Origin: an uncultured Geobacter sp.
GTDB taxonomy: Bacteria; Desulfobacterota; Desulfuromonadia; Geobacterales; Geobacteraceae
Assembly (NCBI GenBank): GCA_903915655.1
Contig: CAIWTU010000158.1
Span: 1-64,000, forward strand
DNA length: 64,000 nt
Direction of reading: 5' to 3'
Every line of letters begins with the position of its first letter. Position 1 is the stretch's first letter. Of this stretch, positions 4,005-13,004 are shown one piece after another. The translations under genes and the position numbers were made by a program. Below the pieces are notes generated by a model, which worked only from the letters and a program-made list of their open reading frames with translations, was not told where the DNA came from and did not search any database.

Positions 4005-4057
4005 CTATGGGGTCTGGCTATGGGGTCTGGCCTCCAAGTTGACAAGTTGTTTTATCA
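4005..4057. repeat. Left inverted repeat of the REP-transposase element
   Basis: A 13-base unit CTATGGGGTCTGG occurs twice in tandem (4005-4017, 4018-4030), then CCTCCAAGTTGACAAGTTG. The reverse complement of 5007-5040 reads ATGGGGTCTGGCCTTCAAGTTGACAAGTT, so the two ends form an imperfect inverted repeat of about 30 bases. The transposase stop codon (4018-4020) and last codons lie inside this repeat. Confidence 0.75.
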
Positions 4058-4986
4058 AGAGCAGCTTTCAGCAACAGCACCCGAGCTGCAACTTCAGTCG
4101 ATTCCTGCATACGTTCGATCAGACGTCGAACAGCGGAACTCATACTCCCCCCATCACGGTTGAGAAGCTTGCCTACTTCAGAAAGGGTGGCGCATTCAAA
4201 CTCCCGTACAAGCCACCCTGCCACAGCGCGCGCTTCGGATGCTTTCCGGTTTTGTGATGATGATTTTATAGCACTCTCGGCAAGTCCGTACTCACGGCAT
4301 ACCCCTTCGACTACATCGAGCACTGTCAGCCTCACTGCTGCACGAGGCAGGCGGAAAAGGCACCTGTCCAGAAAAGTGTCATCGCCAAGCAGGCGCGAGT
4401 CACCTTTTCCTTTTCCATGAAATTCCGGACGGTGTCCTTCCCTTAACCCATCCAACAGAAAGTTTCTGTATGCTAACCTGGCTTTTGCTCCTCTTTCCCC
4501 AAACTGCTCAAGCACCCAGTCGGTTGTCAAGCAGGGAACAATTTCTTTGCCAAGATAGGCGAGATGGCTGCTCCATGAATATTTTTCCAGGTTTTTTGTC
4601 ATGCCGGCCCGAACTGGATTCAGATGGATGTAGCGCACAAGTTCGAGAAGATAACTGTTTGCATCTATCATGACCGCTTTATAACGACCTTGAAAGAGAT
4701 GTCCGGTTCTTTTTTGCTGCCGGTTGATCCAGCGAGTATATCGGAATGAGAGATTCTGCATCCCTCGTGACAAAGGAATATCACCCACCTGCAAGGCCAG
4801 ATGAATATGGTTGGGCATCAGGCAAAAGGCGTGTATACGGTAACCGTATCGGCAGGAGACTTCCTGGAGTAAGAGATAAAAACGGTTTCTGTCGTCATCG
4901 CTCAGAAAGAGAGGCTGGCCGCCATTACCTCGGCAGATGACGTGATAGAGAGCGCCCGGAATATGTATTCGTGGTTTGCGTGCCAT
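4018..4986 (-). CDS. REP-associated tyrosine transposase (RAYT, Y1 family)
   Basis: Start chosen at ATG 4986, giving MARKPRIHIPGALYHVICRG, the standard beginning of this family. 322 residues. The HUH motif is in CLMPNHIHLALQ (about residue 60). The conserved block around YKAVMIDANSYLLELVRYIHLNPVRAGM carries the tyrosine-helix signature of IS200-like Y1 transposases. The C-terminal third (ARAVAGWLVREF...LSEVGKLLNRDGGSMSSAVRRL) is a DnaA-like helix-turn-helix, common in this family. The family nicks single-stranded DNA at REP hairpins through a 5'-phosphotyrosine link. Palindromes at 3850-3959 and inverted repeats at both ends fit this. No frameshift is seen, so it may be active. Confidence 0.9.
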   Translation of the reverse strand: MARKPRIHIPGALYHVICRGNGGQPLFLSDDDRNRFYLLLQEVSCRYGYRIHAFCLMPNHIHLALQVGDIPLSRGMQNLSFRYTRWINRQQKRTGHLFQGRYKAVMIDANSYLLELVRYIHLNPVRAGMTKNLEKYSWSSHLAYLGKEIVPCLTTDWVLEQFGERGAKARLAYRNFLLDGLREGHRPEFHGKGKGDSRLLGDDTFLDRCLFRLPRAAVRLTVLDVVEGVCREYGLAESAIKSSSQNRKASEARAVAGWLVREFECATLSEVGKLLNRDGGSMSSAVRRLIERMQESTEVAARVLLLKAALDKTTCQLGGQTP

Positions 4987-5002
4987 GCGGTGATGATAGA
5001 TC

Positions 5003-5048
5003 AATTTTGATAACTTGTCAACTTGAAGGCCAGACCCCATCAGCTTCC
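5003..5048. repeat. Right inverted repeat of the REP-transposase element
   Basis: AACTTGTCAACTTGAAGGCCAGACCCC mirrors the left end of the element. A diverged direct copy that includes the flanking GATAGATC..TTTTGA..AACTTGTCAACTTGAA lies at 7498-7605. The start codon of the transposase is just inside this end. Confidence 0.75.
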
Positions 5049-5407: not shown

Positions 5408-5436
5408 TTGACAAGGCGTATATTGTGCGCATAACA
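5408..5436 (+). promoter_or_regulatory. Promoter of toxin-antitoxin operon
   Basis: TTGACA at 5408-5413, a 17-base spacer, then ATAACA at 5431-5436. It lies 20 bases before the antitoxin start at 5457 and its AGGAGG ribosome binding site (5445-5450). Confidence 0.5.
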
Positions 5437-5456
5437 TGACATTCAGGAGGTGCGCT

Positions 5457-5711
5457 ATGCAAAAATCTAGAATCAATCTAACTCTTGACGCCGACTTAAT
5501 TGACTTTATCAAGGAATATGCTGAAACACAGAGAACAACGGTTTCTGAAGTCTTTACCCAATTCGCGTTAAAGCTGAAGCGGGCTAAAGAGAATGACCCT
5601 ACTGAAACAATTCTGGCAGACCCTGATTTTTCTGATTCGCTTTTAAGCACAATTGAGCGAGTTAAAGCAGGCACGGTCAGTTGGCTCAGTTATGATGAGG
5701 TCTTTAAATGA
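5457..5711 (+). CDS. Ribbon-helix-helix antitoxin (DUF6364-like)
   Basis: 84 residues from ATG 5457, chosen over an upstream start at 5436 because AGGAGG lies 6 bases before it. The N-terminus MQKSRINLTLDADLIDFIKEYAETQRTTVSEVF is a ribbon-helix-helix DNA-binding fold: one beta strand then two helices. The acidic C-terminal tail (DPDFSDSLLSTIERVKAGTVSWLSYDEVFK) is the usual toxin-wrapping part of a Phd- or RelB-like antitoxin. It overlaps the next gene by four bases (ATGA), so the two are translationally coupled. As in other RHH systems it probably represses its own promoter. Confidence 0.8.
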   Translation: MQKSRINLTLDADLIDFIKEYAETQRTTVSEVFTQFALKLKRAKENDPTETILADPDFSDSLLSTIERVKAGTVSWLSYDEVFK

Positions 5712-6013
5712 ATCTTGTTTTCAGTGACGAGTTTGCTGCGTCTCTAAAAAAGCACAGTGCAATCAAAGAGGCCGTCAGAAGAAAGTTGAATATGATCTGT
5801 GAAAGTCCTTTGACTCTGGGTGAGCCGCTCAAAGGAAATTTTCGTGGTTTCTACAGTTGTCCCGTCAAACGCAATTTCCTGATTATTTTCCTTTACTGCG
5901 CAACATGCCGAAAGAAGGGAGACGATACCATTGTCCTCTGTGCAGATTGTCCTGACTGCCTTGACGACACTATCAAATTTATTGCACTTGGTCCCCACGA
6001 TAAAGCTTATTAG
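5708..6013 (+). CDS. RelE/ParE-family toxin with cysteine-rich insert
   Basis: 101 residues starting in the ATGA overlap with the antitoxin. The fold markers of the RelE/ParE superfamily are present: FSDEFAASLKKHSAIKEAVRRKLNMI, then LKGNFRGFYSCPVKRNFLIIFLY, and the terminal strand TIKFIALGPHDKAY. The last is close to the C-terminal block of YafQ/RelE-type mRNA interferases. The likely role is inhibition of translation when the antitoxin is lost. Unusually, residues about 57-80 carry five cysteines (CATC, CADCPDC) inside the sheet, which could bind metal. Whether it is an mRNase or a ParE-like gyrase poison cannot be told from sequence alone. Confidence 0.75.
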   Translation: MNLVFSDEFAASLKKHSAIKEAVRRKLNMICESPLTLGEPLKGNFRGFYSCPVKRNFLIIFLYCATCRKKGDDTIVLCADCPDCLDDTIKFIALGPHDKAY

Positions 6014-7497: not shown

Positions 7498-7605
7498 ATG
7501 ATAGATCTATTTTGACAACTTGTCAACTTGAAAGCCTGACCCCGTCACTGACCCCGTCAGCTTCCCTGACCCCATCAGCTTCCATCAGACTGTGACCCCA
7601 TCAGA
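7498..7605. repeat. Remnant of transposon end plus TGACCCC array
   Basis: ATGATAGATCTATTTTGACAAC.. (7499-7545) is a diverged direct copy of 4990-5036, the right end of the RAYT element. It runs into four degenerate copies of TGACCCCRTCAG (7537-7605). The array stops 11 bases before the stop codon of the radical SAM gene. Positions 7305-7497 hold no supported gene. Confidence 0.6.
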
Positions 7606-7615
7606 CCGGGCGCTT

Positions 7616-8992
7616 TCAGAAAACCGTCTTCTCCTTCTCGAAGGCGTCCGGCCGTTCACTCTTGATGGTGACATAGAGCTCGAGGCTCCGCCGGACGGCG
7701 CGCCGCTGGTCCTCGCACAACGAGAGAAAGGTCTCCTCGTCGAGTCGGCCACGTCCGACCTGCGCGAAGCACTTGTTACAGAGCCTGTGGGCAAAGCAGG
7801 GTGGGCAGTGTCGGGAAACGAACTCGTGGTACCTGCTCGCCATCTCCTCGGCCCGTTCCGGTCGGCAGAGCTCCTCGCCGACCTCCCCGAGCTGGAAATG
7901 CTCCGTGCGTTCACAGGCGGTCACCCTGCCGCCGGCATCGATGAAGAGCTCGTTCAGACCGGGGTAACAGCAGGCGTTGAGAGGTATCGTGGATGGGGGG
8001 GGAATAGGACGTTGATCGATGGCGAGCATCTTCTGGAGGTGGAGCCCGTCGTCGAACGGCAGCCCCCTCCCGTAGTTCCGCGGATAGCTGCGGCGGAGGA
8101 GCTCCCACTCAGCGTTCTGGCGAGACTTCTCCCCCTCCAGCTCTTCCTTCGACCCGAGGGCACCCGCAGGATCGAAGACCCAGCTCGAGACGATGACCTT
8201 CCCGGCGAAGAGCTCGTCGCTGTTGAAGAACTCGGCGGTCTCGAGGAGGCGCGTGAACGGGGTGACCGTGGCAACGAATCCGACGCTCTCCGAGTAGTAG
8301 TCTGGATGCGCCTGGCGAATCGTGCCGAGGACTTTCAGGAGCCTTGCCAGCGTCCCCTCTCCCGACGGCGTCACGCGCATCCGGTCGTGCCCCGGACCGT
8401 CCAGGCTGACGTTGAGTAGGACCCGGTGGGCCACCAGGAACGACAGCCGGTCCGGGTCGTCGAGCAGGAGGCCGTTCGTCGCCATAGCGAACCGCTCGGC
8501 CCCTCCCGGCAGGTCGAAGGTCTCGACGAAGAAGCGTAGTACGTCCCAGTTCAGGAGCGGCTCCCCGCCGTAGAAGATCACGCTGCGGGGAACCTGGCTG
8601 CGGGCCCGCAGCTGCTCCAGAACGCGGCGTGCCGTCTCCAGGCTCATGGCAGCCTGCTCGTGGGTCCGCTCGCCAGGGACCGACCCGCCGTAGATACAGT
8701 ACCGGCACCGGAGGTTGCACTGATGGGTCAGTCCAAGAACGAGTTTGCTGAGGCCCAACCCCGACAGCTCCATACTCTGCCTCAGGTCTTCGGGCGAGTC
8801 GATACCCGGTTCGCCGTCCCGGAGACCGGCCTGGATGCACGCCATGCGGACGACGGGGTCCATGATCCCGCTCACCAGGCCCGACGCTCGCGTCAGCTCT
8901 CCGTGCAGGGTTTCCGACACGGCGAGGATCCGGTTGGTGAAGGAATCGTAGAGAAACGGTTCTCCGGAAAGAGAATGGAAAGGAAGGATCAT
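7616..8992 (-). CDS. Radical SAM/SPASM peptide maturase (Nif11-associated)
   Basis: 458 residues, ATG 8992 with GGAG upstream. The radical SAM cluster motif CNLRCRYC (Cys 92, 96, 99) binds the [4Fe-4S] that cleaves S-adenosylmethionine. Typical following motifs are present: FYGGEPLLN and MATNGLLL. The C-terminal SPASM domain (about 340-425) has the usual cysteine set: CCYPGLNELFIDAGGRVTAC, then CPPCFAHRLCNKC, then a last Cys. Residues 1-80 form an N-terminal region like the precursor-binding RRE-like part of peptide maturases. The precursor gene lies 100 bases upstream on the same strand. The likely reaction is radical thioether or C-C bond formation on the core peptide. GC content is far above the neighbours, a sign of transfer. 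No transporter or protease gene is adjacent. Confidence 0.88.
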   Translation of the reverse strand: MILPFHSLSGEPFLYDSFTNRILAVSETLHGELTRASGLVSGIMDPVVRMACIQAGLRDGEPGIDSPEDLRQSMELSGLGLSKLVLGLTHQCNLRCRYCIYGGSVPGERTHEQAAMSLETARRVLEQLRARSQVPRSVIFYGGEPLLNWDVLRFFVETFDLPGGAERFAMATNGLLLDDPDRLSFLVAHRVLLNVSLDGPGHDRMRVTPSGEGTLARLLKVLGTIRQAHPDYYSESVGFVATVTPFTRLLETAEFFNSDELFAGKVIVSSWVFDPAGALGSKEELEGEKSRQNAEWELLRRSYPRNYGRGLPFDDGLHLQKMLAIDQRPIPPPSTIPLNACCYPGLNELFIDAGGRVTACERTEHFQLGEVGEELCRPERAEEMASRYHEFVSRHCPPCFAHRLCNKCFAQVGRGRLDEETFLSLCEDQRRAVRRSLELYVTIKSERPDAFEKEKTVF

Positions 8993-9092
8993 CGGCCCGC
9001 TCCGATCGGTTTGACCCGTCCCGATCCCGGCACGCAGATCCAGGCGATCTGTCGAATCAGCGGAGCGGTGCCCGGTCGGGTCCCCCCGGCTG

Positions 9093-9359
9093 CTATGGCA
9101 TGCTGGTCACGAGCATAGTTGTACTGAGGAGGCACATTGGGCACGATTTCTTGGATTGTCCCCCGACCACCCCCTCAAGCTCACGTGTAGAGAGTTCATG
9201 TGGCAACGCTGATTCTAACTCGGCCGAGGTGAAGTCGAAACCTTGCTCCGCGATGAAGGCCCATGCCTGCTCTTCCGTCTTCACCGCCTCCGCAGCTGTG
9301 GCAAATCCCTTGTCGGTCTTCAGTCTTTCTACGTATGCTTTCGCGCTCTCAATCGACAT
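9093..9359 (-). CDS. Nif11-type RiPP precursor peptide
   Basis: 88 residues, ATG 9359 with AGGAG 8 bases upstream. Residues 1-67 are a Nif11-like leader: SIESAKAYVERLKTDKGFA.., then EEQAWAFIAEQGFDFTSAEL, ending ELEGVVGG. The double glycine is the classic leader cleavage site. The core is the last 21 residues and carries CPMC (Cys 73 and 76), followed by a stretch rich in Leu, Ser, Thr and Met. Nif11 leaders are known to guide several modification enzymes; here the partner is the radical SAM/SPASM protein 100 bases downstream. Cysteine-to-alpha-carbon or beta/gamma-carbon thioethers are the most likely modification. The C39-type peptidase needed to cut after GG is not in the window. Confidence 0.88.
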   Translation of the reverse strand: MSIESAKAYVERLKTDKGFATAAEAVKTEEQAWAFIAEQGFDFTSAELESALPHELSTRELEGVVGGQSKKSCPMCLLSTTMLVTSMP

Positions 9360-9658
9360 AATATGCTCCTATCGTTCATATTAAAGGATAAGAATTTACT
9401 TTTTAGCGGTACCACACAAAATGGACCGCCGTCAACACTATTTAACCAGACCCCTCAAGACCCTATTACCTGTAAAGGCGCCCCCCCAACCCCGCGCATC
9501 TCCAAAAGCAGTTTGTTAGGAGAATAAATAGCCACCGTGTGTGACGCCACTACCGTAGCCCTTTTGCAAGCCGGCATGGCAATAGTCGAATCAGAGTTTA
9601 AAGGGATTGAAGTCGGGAGAGAAGTTGTTTTTTCCAGAGCCTGTATTACACTTTTCTT

Positions 9659-10003: not shown

Positions 10004-11425
10004 TCACCATTTCTGCTTTCGTTCGAATGCCAGAATCTCCGGCAGGTGCCTCATAAAGGTCATAATACTGTGGGGAGATTTCCAAAACATCTTTGCGTAT
10101 CCGATCTGGATACGGGTGCGGTGATAGAAGCTGCGGATAAACTCGTTATACAGCTCTTCCAGTTCTGGCCTGGTCATCCCGTGCGGAACAAAAACAAAAT
10201 TCATGCAGTTCATCAGATCCCAGTTTTCATCGAATTCCCCCTGCTCCCTGATTGTACGGTAAATCGGCGCGCCGGGAAACGGGGTGAACTTGGTGACATT
10301 GATCTCGTCCAGAGGAAGTGACAGGGCATAATCAATGGTACGGCGGATAGCTGTCTCGTTTTCACCCGGCAGCCCTACCATAAACAGCCCTTTTACCCGG
10401 ATACCTGCGGCTCTGACCATCCGCAGCTTCCGTCCGACCTCGTCCAGTTCAAAAAATTTACGATGCCGTTTCAGAATCTCCGGATCGCCCGACTCGATAC
10501 CGAAATTAACCTGCCAACAACCGGATCGCTTGAGAAGTATCAAGAGCTCCGGATCCACATGTTCCAAACGGGCGATGCAGTTGTAGGTTATCTTCAATCC
10601 CTTGCGCGCCTTTATTTCGCAAAATTCGGCAACCCGTTTTCGATCAAAGGTAAAGAGGTCGTCATAAAAAAATACGTGACGGATACCGAAGTCGCGGTTA
10701 AGCATCGAAATATGCTCGACAATATAGTCGGGAGAGTTAAACCTGAAGCCGAGGCTGAATACTGAGCGGTCGCAGTAGGAGCAGGAATAGGGACATCCCC
10801 TGCTGGAAATGATACTGGTATTGGGGGCCGAGGGGTAACTGAAGAGCGGCAGGTTGTAGCGTCGGGGGAATTGGGGGAGTTTGTGGTATGCGGGGAAAGG
10901 GAGATCGTCCAGGTTCTTGATCAGTTCACGCGGCGCTGAAGATACGGCAGCTCCGGTTCCATCCCGGTAGGCCACGCCGGGAACCTGCCCGATCCCCTTG
11001 AAGCCGGCTTGAGCAAGTTGCAGCATGGTATTTTCGCCTTCGCCGATCGCCAGGCAATCAATGGCCGGAAATGAATCGAGAAGTGATGCGCCTATGGTGC
11101 AGGCATGGGCTCCGCCGAACAGTGTGAAGATATCTGGAGCTTTTTCCTTTACGGCCGCGACGATTCGGTAACCCTCGTTGAATGAGGATGTTGTCGTGGA
11201 TACTCCCAGGCAGTCGGGAGCTCGCCGAACGATCTCTTCTACCAGTTCTGCGAACGGTTTTGGTGTCGCGTAGCAGTCGATTATTTCGACATCGATCCCC
11301 GCCCGTTCGAGTACCGCCGCAACAGACATCATCCCCAACGGTGGCATCAGGTTGAACACCGTACTTATGTCTTTCATTCCACTAAGCCAGTTGCTGCCAT
11401 AGGGGTGCAGGAGAAGAATTTTCAC
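10004..11425 (-). CDS. B12-binding-domain radical SAM protein
   Basis: 473 residues. The N-terminus (MKILLLHPYGSNWL..PPLGMMSVAAVLERAGIDVEIID) through about residue 140 (LFGGAHACTIGASLLDSFPAIDCLAIGEGE) is a cobalamin-binding Rossmann domain of the BchE type. The radical SAM motif is in SSRGCPYSCSYC (about 205-215), with a normal TIM-barrel follow-up (IESGDPEILKRHRK, GLFMVGLPGE). Family members are methyltransferases, cyclases or C-C forming enzymes acting on tetrapyrroles, hopanoids, phosphonates or peptides. The substrate cannot be read here. It faces the same way as the Nif11 locus, but GC content and the intervening PAS debris argue against a shared operon. Confidence 0.8.
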   Translation of the reverse strand: MKILLLHPYGSNWLSGMKDISTVFNLMPPLGMMSVAAVLERAGIDVEIIDCYATPKPFAELVEEIVRRAPDCLGVSTTTSSFNEGYRIVAAVKEKAPDIFTLFGGAHACTIGASLLDSFPAIDCLAIGEGENTMLQLAQAGFKGIGQVPGVAYRDGTGAAVSSAPRELIKNLDDLPFPAYHKLPQFPRRYNLPLFSYPSAPNTSIISSRGCPYSCSYCDRSVFSLGFRFNSPDYIVEHISMLNRDFGIRHVFFYDDLFTFDRKRVAEFCEIKARKGLKITYNCIARLEHVDPELLILLKRSGCWQVNFGIESGDPEILKRHRKFFELDEVGRKLRMVRAAGIRVKGLFMVGLPGENETAIRRTIDYALSLPLDEINVTKFTPFPGAPIYRTIREQGEFDENWDLMNCMNFVFVPHGMTRPELEELYNEFIRSFYHRTRIQIGYAKMFWKSPHSIMTFMRHLPEILAFERKQKW

Positions 11426-11687: not shown

Positions 11688-13004
11688 TTAACGGCCAGGC
11701 CGTCCGCCCTGTTGATGGTCAGGCTGAGCGCCCTGTTGACGGTCAGGCTGGGCAGCCGGTTGACGGTCAGGCTTAGCAGCCGGTTGACGACTGGGCTGGG
11801 CAGCCGGTTGCCGACCCGGCTGGGCAGTCGGTTGACGACCCGGCTGGGCTGCCGGTTGACGGCCAGGCTGGGCAGCCGGTTGACGACCCGGCTGGGCAGC
11901 CGGTTGACGGCCAGGCTGGGCAGTCGGTTGACGACCCGGCTGGGCAGTCGGTTGACGACTGGGCTGGGCAGTCGGTTGACGGCCAGGCTGGGCTCCAGGT
12001 TGACGGCCAGGCTGGACACCCGGTTGATGGCCACTCTGCGCTCCAGGTTGCCGACCAGGCTGGACACCCGGTTGATGGCCAGGCTGCGTTCCAGGTTGAC
12101 GGCCAGGCTGGACACCCGGTTGATGGCCACTCTGCGCTCCAGGTTGCCGACCAGGCTGGACACCCGGTTGATGACCAGGCTGCGCTCCAGGTTGACGGCC
12201 AGGCTGGACACCCGGTTGATGACCAGGCTGCGCTCCAGGTTGCCGGCCAGGCTGAACACCCGGTTGATGGCCACTCTGCGCTCCAGGTTGCCGGCCAGGC
12301 TGAACACCCGGTTGATGGCCACTCTGCGCTCCAGGTTGCCGGCCAGGCTGGTGGCCAAGCGTGCGGTCAGGCTTCGGGAAATAGCCTTTTTCGCCAGGCC
12401 GGTGGCTCACAAATCCCTGCGGCCGGTGACGTTCGTCGCGCCCCCAACTCTGCCGCTGCCGGTCTATGTTATGCATCCTTTCCCGCCGGATATCAGACCT
12501 CATTTCATGTCTGTACCAGCTTTGTCCGCGCCAGTGGTGGTTGCGGTCCCAATACCGCCAGTTCCGGTGAAAATCGCCGTAGCGGATCCGATGATACCCG
12601 ATGGGGAGGATTACAGGGTATTCGGGCGGAATTCCCATAATGGCCAGCGGGACCAGTCCAACGGCGATGGGAAACCATGGTTCGTTATAGACGCCTGCCC
12701 GGTACCAGCCACCGTTATAGAAGCGAAACCAGGAGTTGTTGAAGAAGTAGACACCAAAGGTATTCGGGATGACGTAGACAGAACTATTGCCGCTCGGGAC
12801 AACCGCCATCTCCGGCGGCTGGGCGAACTCCAGCTGAGGGGGCGCCTCATCGATATAAGCTCCTTCCTGCGGCGCGTACCCCTCCACCACCGGTGCGAGG
12901 GGAAGAGGAATATCGACATTGATATTTACCTGTGCAGATACACCTCTGATTGGTGCGAATGCCGTCACAAGAAGACAGACAATTACAGAGAGAGCCTTTC
13001 GCAT
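11688..13004 (-). CDS. Exported protein with Gln-Pro-Gly tandem repeats
   Basis: 438 residues. A clear signal peptide (MRKALSVIVCLLVTAFAPIRGVSA) is followed by a folded part (about 25-205) with aromatic blocks such as FFNNSWFRFYNGGWYRAG. From about 212 to the end the protein is a tandem array. It has about six 16-residue units of the type QPGRQPGAQSGHQPGV, then 8-residue units of the type QPGRQPTA. The array makes up about half the gene and is rich in Arg, Gln, Pro and Gly, so it is very basic and probably unfolded. This suggests a cell-surface or polysaccharide/DNA-binding protein. No known family is assigned. Long open frames on the opposite strand here are products of the repeats. Confidence 0.75.
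   Translation of the reverse strand: MRKALSVIVCLLVTAFAPIRGVSAQVNINVDIPLPLAPVVEGYAPQEGAYIDEAPPQLEFAQPPEMAVVPSGNSSVYVIPNTFGVYFFNNSWFRFYNGGWYRAGVYNEPWFPIAVGLVPLAIMGIPPEYPVILPIGYHRIRYGDFHRNWRYWDRNHHWRGQSWYRHEMRSDIRRERMHNIDRQRQSWGRDERHRPQGFVSHRPGEKGYFPKPDRTLGHQPGRQPGAQSGHQPGVQPGRQPGAQSGHQPGVQPGRQPGAQPGHQPGVQPGRQPGAQPGHQPGVQPGRQPGAQSGHQPGVQPGRQPGTQPGHQPGVQPGRQPGAQSGHQPGVQPGRQPGAQPGRQPTAQPSRQPTAQPGRQPTAQPGRQPAAQPGRQPAAQPGRQPAAQPGRQPTAQPGRQPAAQPSRQPAAKPDRQPAAQPDRQQGAQPDHQQGGRPGR
11690..12355. repeat. Tandem 24/48-bp coding repeats
   Basis: The coding array of the repeat protein consists of 48-bp units (12000-12355) and 24-bp units (11690-12000) with few substitutions. Copies are very similar at DNA level, so length is likely to vary among strains. 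No spacers are present, so it is not a CRISPR array. Confidence 0.8.

Follow-up and report, generated by a model that had tools for sequence, protein, structure and literature searches.

N11P precursors have a published consensus of ELSDEELEAVAGG with a cleavage motif near residue 69, a leader of 69 and a core of 23 residues, and genes that are located apart from the export genes (PMC2887384). The enzyme partners described for them are LanM, cyclodehydratase and PlpX-type enzymes, and in the spliceotides, made by PlpX/PlpY, a Nif11-type leader and a SPASM enzyme go together with a Tyr-Gly splicing motif. Sactipeptides are defined by a bridge from Cys sulfur to an alpha-carbon. Two of them, thurincin H and ruminococcin C, carry three or four cysteines; those of thurincin H stand at positions 4, 7, 10 and 13, a CxxC spacing, and its inner bridges join Cys13 to Asn19 (+6) and Cys10 to Thr22 (+12) (PMC8172795). 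SCIFF ranthipeptides are marked by a SCIFF maturase and by six cysteines within some 45 residues. The precursors of the CcpM clade (TIGR04068) that we encountered combine short leaders with CxC/CxCxC- or CxxxC-type cores. Here we describe a gene pair, within a 64,000-nucleotide stretch of Geobacter DNA (the window), that joins a Nif11-leader precursor to a CcpM-like SPASM maturase, a partner of N11P that was not found elsewhere in our genome searches or in the literature surveyed. It is this pairing, and not the cysteine spacing of the core, that is new.

Both genes are intact and RiPP-like, and the profile matches of their products are beyond chance (Table 1). A sequence-only reading had described an 88-residue Nif11 precursor with a GG site and a 21-residue CPMC core, followed 100 nt downstream by a maturase, and had taken the two for a RiPP-type pair; the coordinates and the anatomy proved exact, and the classification holds. 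The precursor passes the TIGR03798 cut-off (57 against 32.3 bits) and matches Pfam Nif11 with 47 bits. Its leader, MSIESAKAYVERLKTDKGFATAAEAVKTEEQAWAFIAEQGFDFTSAELESALPHELSTRELEGVVGG, runs into the core QSKKSCPMCLLSTTMLVTSMP, with the end of the leader agreeing with the N11P consensus: an ELSxxELxxVxGG cleavage motif, with GG at residues 66-67, precedes a short variable core, and the lengths of 67 and 21 residues fit the published ones. Cys73 and Cys76 are the sole cysteines of the precursor, and the core lacks Tyr, Gly and aromatic residues. It therefore lacks the Tyr-Gly motif of spliceotides; moreover, the enzyme groups with CcpM-like maturases and has no separate RRE protein beside it. In contrast to SCIFF ranthipeptides, there are two cysteines and an enzyme outside the SCIFF clade. 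Exactly 100 nt separate the precursor stop from the maturase start, with both genes on the minus strand and the precursor upstream; folding of this gap resembles that of shuffled sequences (z -0.28), with no sign of an attenuator or other RNA structure.

Table 1. Coordinates of the precursor-maturase pair in the window, of the export genes in the same genome (G000) and of CxCxC peptides beside distant maturase relatives (L numbers denote loci).
Feature	Position	Strand	Basis
Nif11-leader RiPP precursor, 88 aa	9093..9359	-	TIGR03798, 57 bits, E 1.7e-15; Pfam Nif11, E 2.7e-12
Precursor ribosome-binding site (Shine-Dalgarno), AGGAG	9366..9370	-	sequence
Precursor leader, residues 1-67, ending in ELSTRELEGVVGG	9159..9359	-	translation
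Precursor core QSKKSCPMCLLSTTMLVTSMP, 21 residues	9096..9158	-	translation; cut after GG predicted from the N11P motif
CPMC, Cys73 and Cys76 of the precursor, putative thioether donors	9132..9143	-	sequence
Radical SAM/SPASM maturase, CcpM-like clade, 458 aa	7616..8992	-	profiles, alignment, trees
RRE-like N-terminal region of the maturase, presumed leader-binding	8819..8992	-	AlphaFold model; CteB structural match
CxxxCxxC [4Fe-4S]/SAM motif, C92-C96-C99	8696..8719	-	invariant in 24 relatives
SPASM-type region, C342, C360, C396, C399, C405, C408, C426	7715..7969	-	all seven invariant in 24 relatives
Complete NHLM trio	G000 contig C51:132771-138940 (L142:4772-10941)	minus in L142	profiles; near contig end
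CxCxC peptides, phylum of L022	L152:1231-1401, L153:1235-1402, L154:1216-1389, L156:454-648		
CxCxC peptides, phylum of L022 (rest)	L149:2067-2264, L151:1486-1674, L022:6504-6674		

The maturase matches the Pfam Radical_SAM model (E 6.4e-17); a match to the Pfam SPASM model was not reported. Its seven C-terminal cysteines fit the SPASM pattern and are kept in all 24 of the diverse relatives aligned, as are C92, C96 and C99, and the enzyme has both the CxxxCxxC motif and the auxiliary-cluster cysteines of a radical SAM/SPASM protein. The AlphaFold model (pLDDT 76.8, pTM 0.80) gives the N-terminus a strand-strand-strand-helix-helix arrangement of the RRE kind, and the closest solved structure is CteB (5wgg_A; TM 0.69/0.72 over the full length), an RRE-bearing thioether synthase. 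Because many of the alignment rows behind the model are SCIFF/CteB-type maturases, the match lends support without being independent evidence.

No NCBIfam equivalog cut-off is reached by the maturase, which therefore stands outside every named maturase family by curated thresholds, in keeping with the uncharacterised system that had been proposed. The best profile is CcpM (162 bits, cut-off 500), with which the enzyme shares clade, architecture and intact radical SAM and SPASM cysteines, and the second-best is RumMC (NF035951; 131.8 bits, cut-off 720), with QhpD (95 bits, cut-off 453) and PapB (90 bits, cut-off 340) also among the best. The profile for radical SAM maturases of nif11-like peptides (TIGR04064) scores 70.6 bits against a cut-off of 518.7, and that for geopeptide maturases (TIGR04280) 48.7 against 400. 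When 78 maturases were placed in one tree, the enzyme joined six CcpM-like proteins (support 100/95), and a SCIFF clade of 45 members stood apart; a second tree puts the enzyme on an isolated long branch within a 19-member CcpM-like clade (100/99) that includes a bona fide CcpM (L020; 615 bits, cut-off 500). Judged by profiles and trees, then, the maturase belongs to the CcpM-like clade of thioether-type maturases, alone on a long branch.

RumMC, QhpD and PapB all make Cys-to-carbon thioethers. Since these are the nearest characterised profile families, a thioether is the likeliest product of the maturase. The explanation that we favour, at somewhat better than even confidence, is a stand-alone two-gene cassette for a Nif11-guided thioether RiPP, which would be matured by the SPASM enzyme and exported in trans by an NHLM trio. 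The N-terminal RRE of the maturase would bind the Nif11 leader, and the radical SAM site would generate a substrate radical. Aided by the SPASM auxiliary clusters, the enzyme would then link the sulfur of Cys73 and/or Cys76 to downstream core residues. The modified precursor would then be cut after GG and exported by the sole C39 transporter of the genome, in the NHLM trio on another contig. By analogy with the +6/+12 rule of thurincin H, whose inner-cysteine acceptors are spaced in this way, we predict a nested hairpin with possible bridges Cys9-Met15 and Cys6-Thr18 (core numbering). The same comparison undoes one argument of the sequence-only reading, that a CxxC core is unlike those of sactipeptides, because thurincin H has precisely this spacing (PMC8172795). 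Differences from thurincin H and ruminococcin C lie elsewhere: two core cysteines instead of three or four, a 67-residue Nif11 leader and no cluster-encoded transporter. Counting against the favoured explanation, the pair lacks conservation across the genomes searched, and its two core cysteines are fewer than those of most CcpM-clade precursors.

Relatives of the maturase are sparse and distant. None was found in 58 near genomes, the genome of the window among them; 277 genomes of the class yielded one (L018, 29% identity) and 395 genomes of the phylum one (L003, 34% identity over the matched part), and identity did not exceed 34% among the matches listed. An alignment-guided scan of genome contigs recovered at least 80 further loci. 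Exact-peptide scans of genome and viral contigs returned no relatives, and in plasmids tblastn matched nothing but generic radical SAM proteins, with identities of about 30% at most. With the precursor as query, plasmids gave weak matches only, two of them annotated as Nif11-like. Homologous pairs, which had been expected if the two genes act together, were sought in vain: no Nif11 ORF lies next to a related maturase at any of the approximately 95 loci listed, and a search of 11 genomes with CcpM-like or other related maturases gave no Nif11 peptide at E values up to 0.001. Conversely, Nif11 peptides occur in 19 of the 395 phylum genomes (own included), and in the stretches read the others have neither a CPxC core nor an adjacent SPASM maturase of this clade. 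Therefore, the pairing is so far a single case, and the functional coupling of precursor and maturase is putative, not refuted.

The small ORFs beside related maturases encode peptides with short leaders and CxC/CxCxC-type or CxxxC-type cysteines (...LEAYCNCGTCACSKYCAGDC in L020, MFRKLEEDKIPVTTAAETPDGECVCACK... in L153, FCQVKCIATCGAACAADTV... in L021), none of them Nif11. Several relatives within the CcpM clade adjoin such Cys-containing ORFs, in which closely spaced cysteines are kept. In the class of the window, a Cys-rich precursor (L018:2119-2346; CNCAC ... CGCGCG) lies directly downstream of a CcpM-like maturase and weakly matches the CA_C0660 putative sactipeptide family. In another phylum, that of L022, 20 of 80 genomes have maturase relatives, and in at least seven loci read a peptide of 55-70 aa adjoins the maturase, starting with M[FY]xxL/V and carrying CxCxC without exception. 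Three of them were scanned against the NCBIfam models, with no match, and these peptides look like an undescribed RiPP family.

No exporter adjoins the pair, and the earlier suggestion that a C39 transporter might act in trans was borne out to the extent that a single C39 peptidase domain is encoded in the genome, on contig C51, away from the precursor. This sole C39 transporter is part of an NHLM export trio that passes all three cut-offs (TIGR03796, 1079 bits against 853; TIGR03797, 910 against 709; TIGR03794, 300 against 156) and beside which no precursor or modification enzyme was recognised. The TIGR03796 cut-off is passed by one of 55 genomes, the window's own, and by none of its 54 relatives; a Nif11 match above cut-off was found, besides the own genome, in one of 55 relatives, within a 694-codon frame. 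Nif11 peptides and NHLM export thus co-occur in this genome on different contigs and are nearly absent from the relatives searched. Export of the precursor in trans by the NHLM/C39 transporter is supported, if still indirectly, because the only C39 domain sits in a complete NHLM trio that is all but absent from relatives. In leader family, GG motif, leader length and possession of this trio, which often but not always accompanies N11P precursors, the system resembles N11P with NHLM export. The 3.36-Mb genome has only two Nif11 peptides. The second (contig C101:12245-12385; L012:1384-1641, minus) has 85 aa, no GG and the tail WQPRRQPYWWQFIPDE; after it comes a double-glycine peptide of 53 aa whose last residues are ELSDEELKDVSGGVAKNLGEAA, with no radical SAM gene seen nearby.

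An unlikely but serious alternative is that the two genes are neighbours by chance, the high-GC maturase being a recent orphan acquisition and the resident Nif11 precursor being left unmodified. As the sequence-only reading had noted, the composition of the enzyme gene is foreign: its GC3 is 0.83, while that of the neighbours is 0.4-0.73 and that of the precursor, which is no outlier, is 0.64, a value imprecise for a gene of 88 codons. The maturase gene looks recently acquired on this compositional ground, and, given the difference from the precursor, the two genes may have arrived separately. Around the pair there are a Y1 transposase and remnants of genes, and the other Nif11 peptide, on C101, belongs to the same genome. 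Nevertheless, the maturase is intact, a Nif11 match above cut-off occurs in just one of 55 relatives, and one of only two such peptides in 3.36 Mb is encoded on the strand of the maturase, exactly 100 nt upstream of it. The lack of a second example of the pair in any genome keeps this alternative in the reckoning. Direct signs of insertion were scant: flanking repeats are short direct repeats only, none clearly framing the cassette, and the upstream gene for a B12-binding radical SAM protein (10004-11425) is alone matched in six relatives, so synteny defines no empty site. The phylum of L025 (labelled Myxococcota) was rejected as donor, with no maturase relative in 341 genomes. Farther out from the pair lie genes for an FMN reductase and an isochorismatase.

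That the B12-binding enzyme could be a second tailoring enzyme of the pathway is scarcely credible. It is encoded on the same strand and its profile matches include RiPP enzymes such as ApyD, but it occurs in 18 of 23 genomes of the order searched, mostly at 67-74% identity, whereas the relatives searched lack the maturase, and we rejected it on this ground. A distinctly improbable alternative concerns the chemistry: the maturase might act on the core without thioethers, by a C-C or C-O cross-link or by epimerisation, and the two cysteines might form a disulfide after export. SPASM enzymes also form cyclophanes and other bonds, and Thr, Ser, Met and Lys of the core are possible sites. However, the YhhB, AmcB and FxsB cyclophane profiles match the maturase at 67 bits or less, far below CcpM and RumMC, the core has none of the aromatic residues on which cyclophanes are built, and closely spaced cysteines are kept in clade relatives.

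Several further features of the window were observed around the pair. The Y1 transposase (4018-5040, minus; IS200-like, RAYT-type) is fused to a DnaA-type HTH domain, and short GACCCC(G/A)TCAG repeats lie just downstream of the maturase (7545-7580). At 5436-6013, a gene for a ribbon-helix-helix protein is followed by a small ORF that overlaps it by 4 nt and has no Pfam match, probably a toxin-antitoxin pair. The gene at 11688-13004 (minus) encodes a protein of 438 aa that has a long tail of PGRQPGAQ-type repeats.

Returning to the thioether cassette, it is tempting to propose that here, for the first time, a thioether maturase of the CcpM-like clade has switched to a Nif11 leader, producing a two-bridge RiPP of 21 residues from a cassette and an NHLM exporter on separate contigs; we hold this fuller reading tentatively, at less than even confidence. 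If true, it would mean that the CcpM-like enzyme clade is open to recombination with a leader and export module. The distant relatives, in turn, suggest that another phylum has a family of CxCxC peptides that is still without a name. Should the maturase use the Nif11 leader, the modular Nif11/NHLM system would be within reach of a thioether clade whose leaders are usually short and idiosyncratic; this would be an instance of natural RiPP pathway mixing and would also offer a compact two-cysteine substrate for studying acceptor choice by SPASM maturases.
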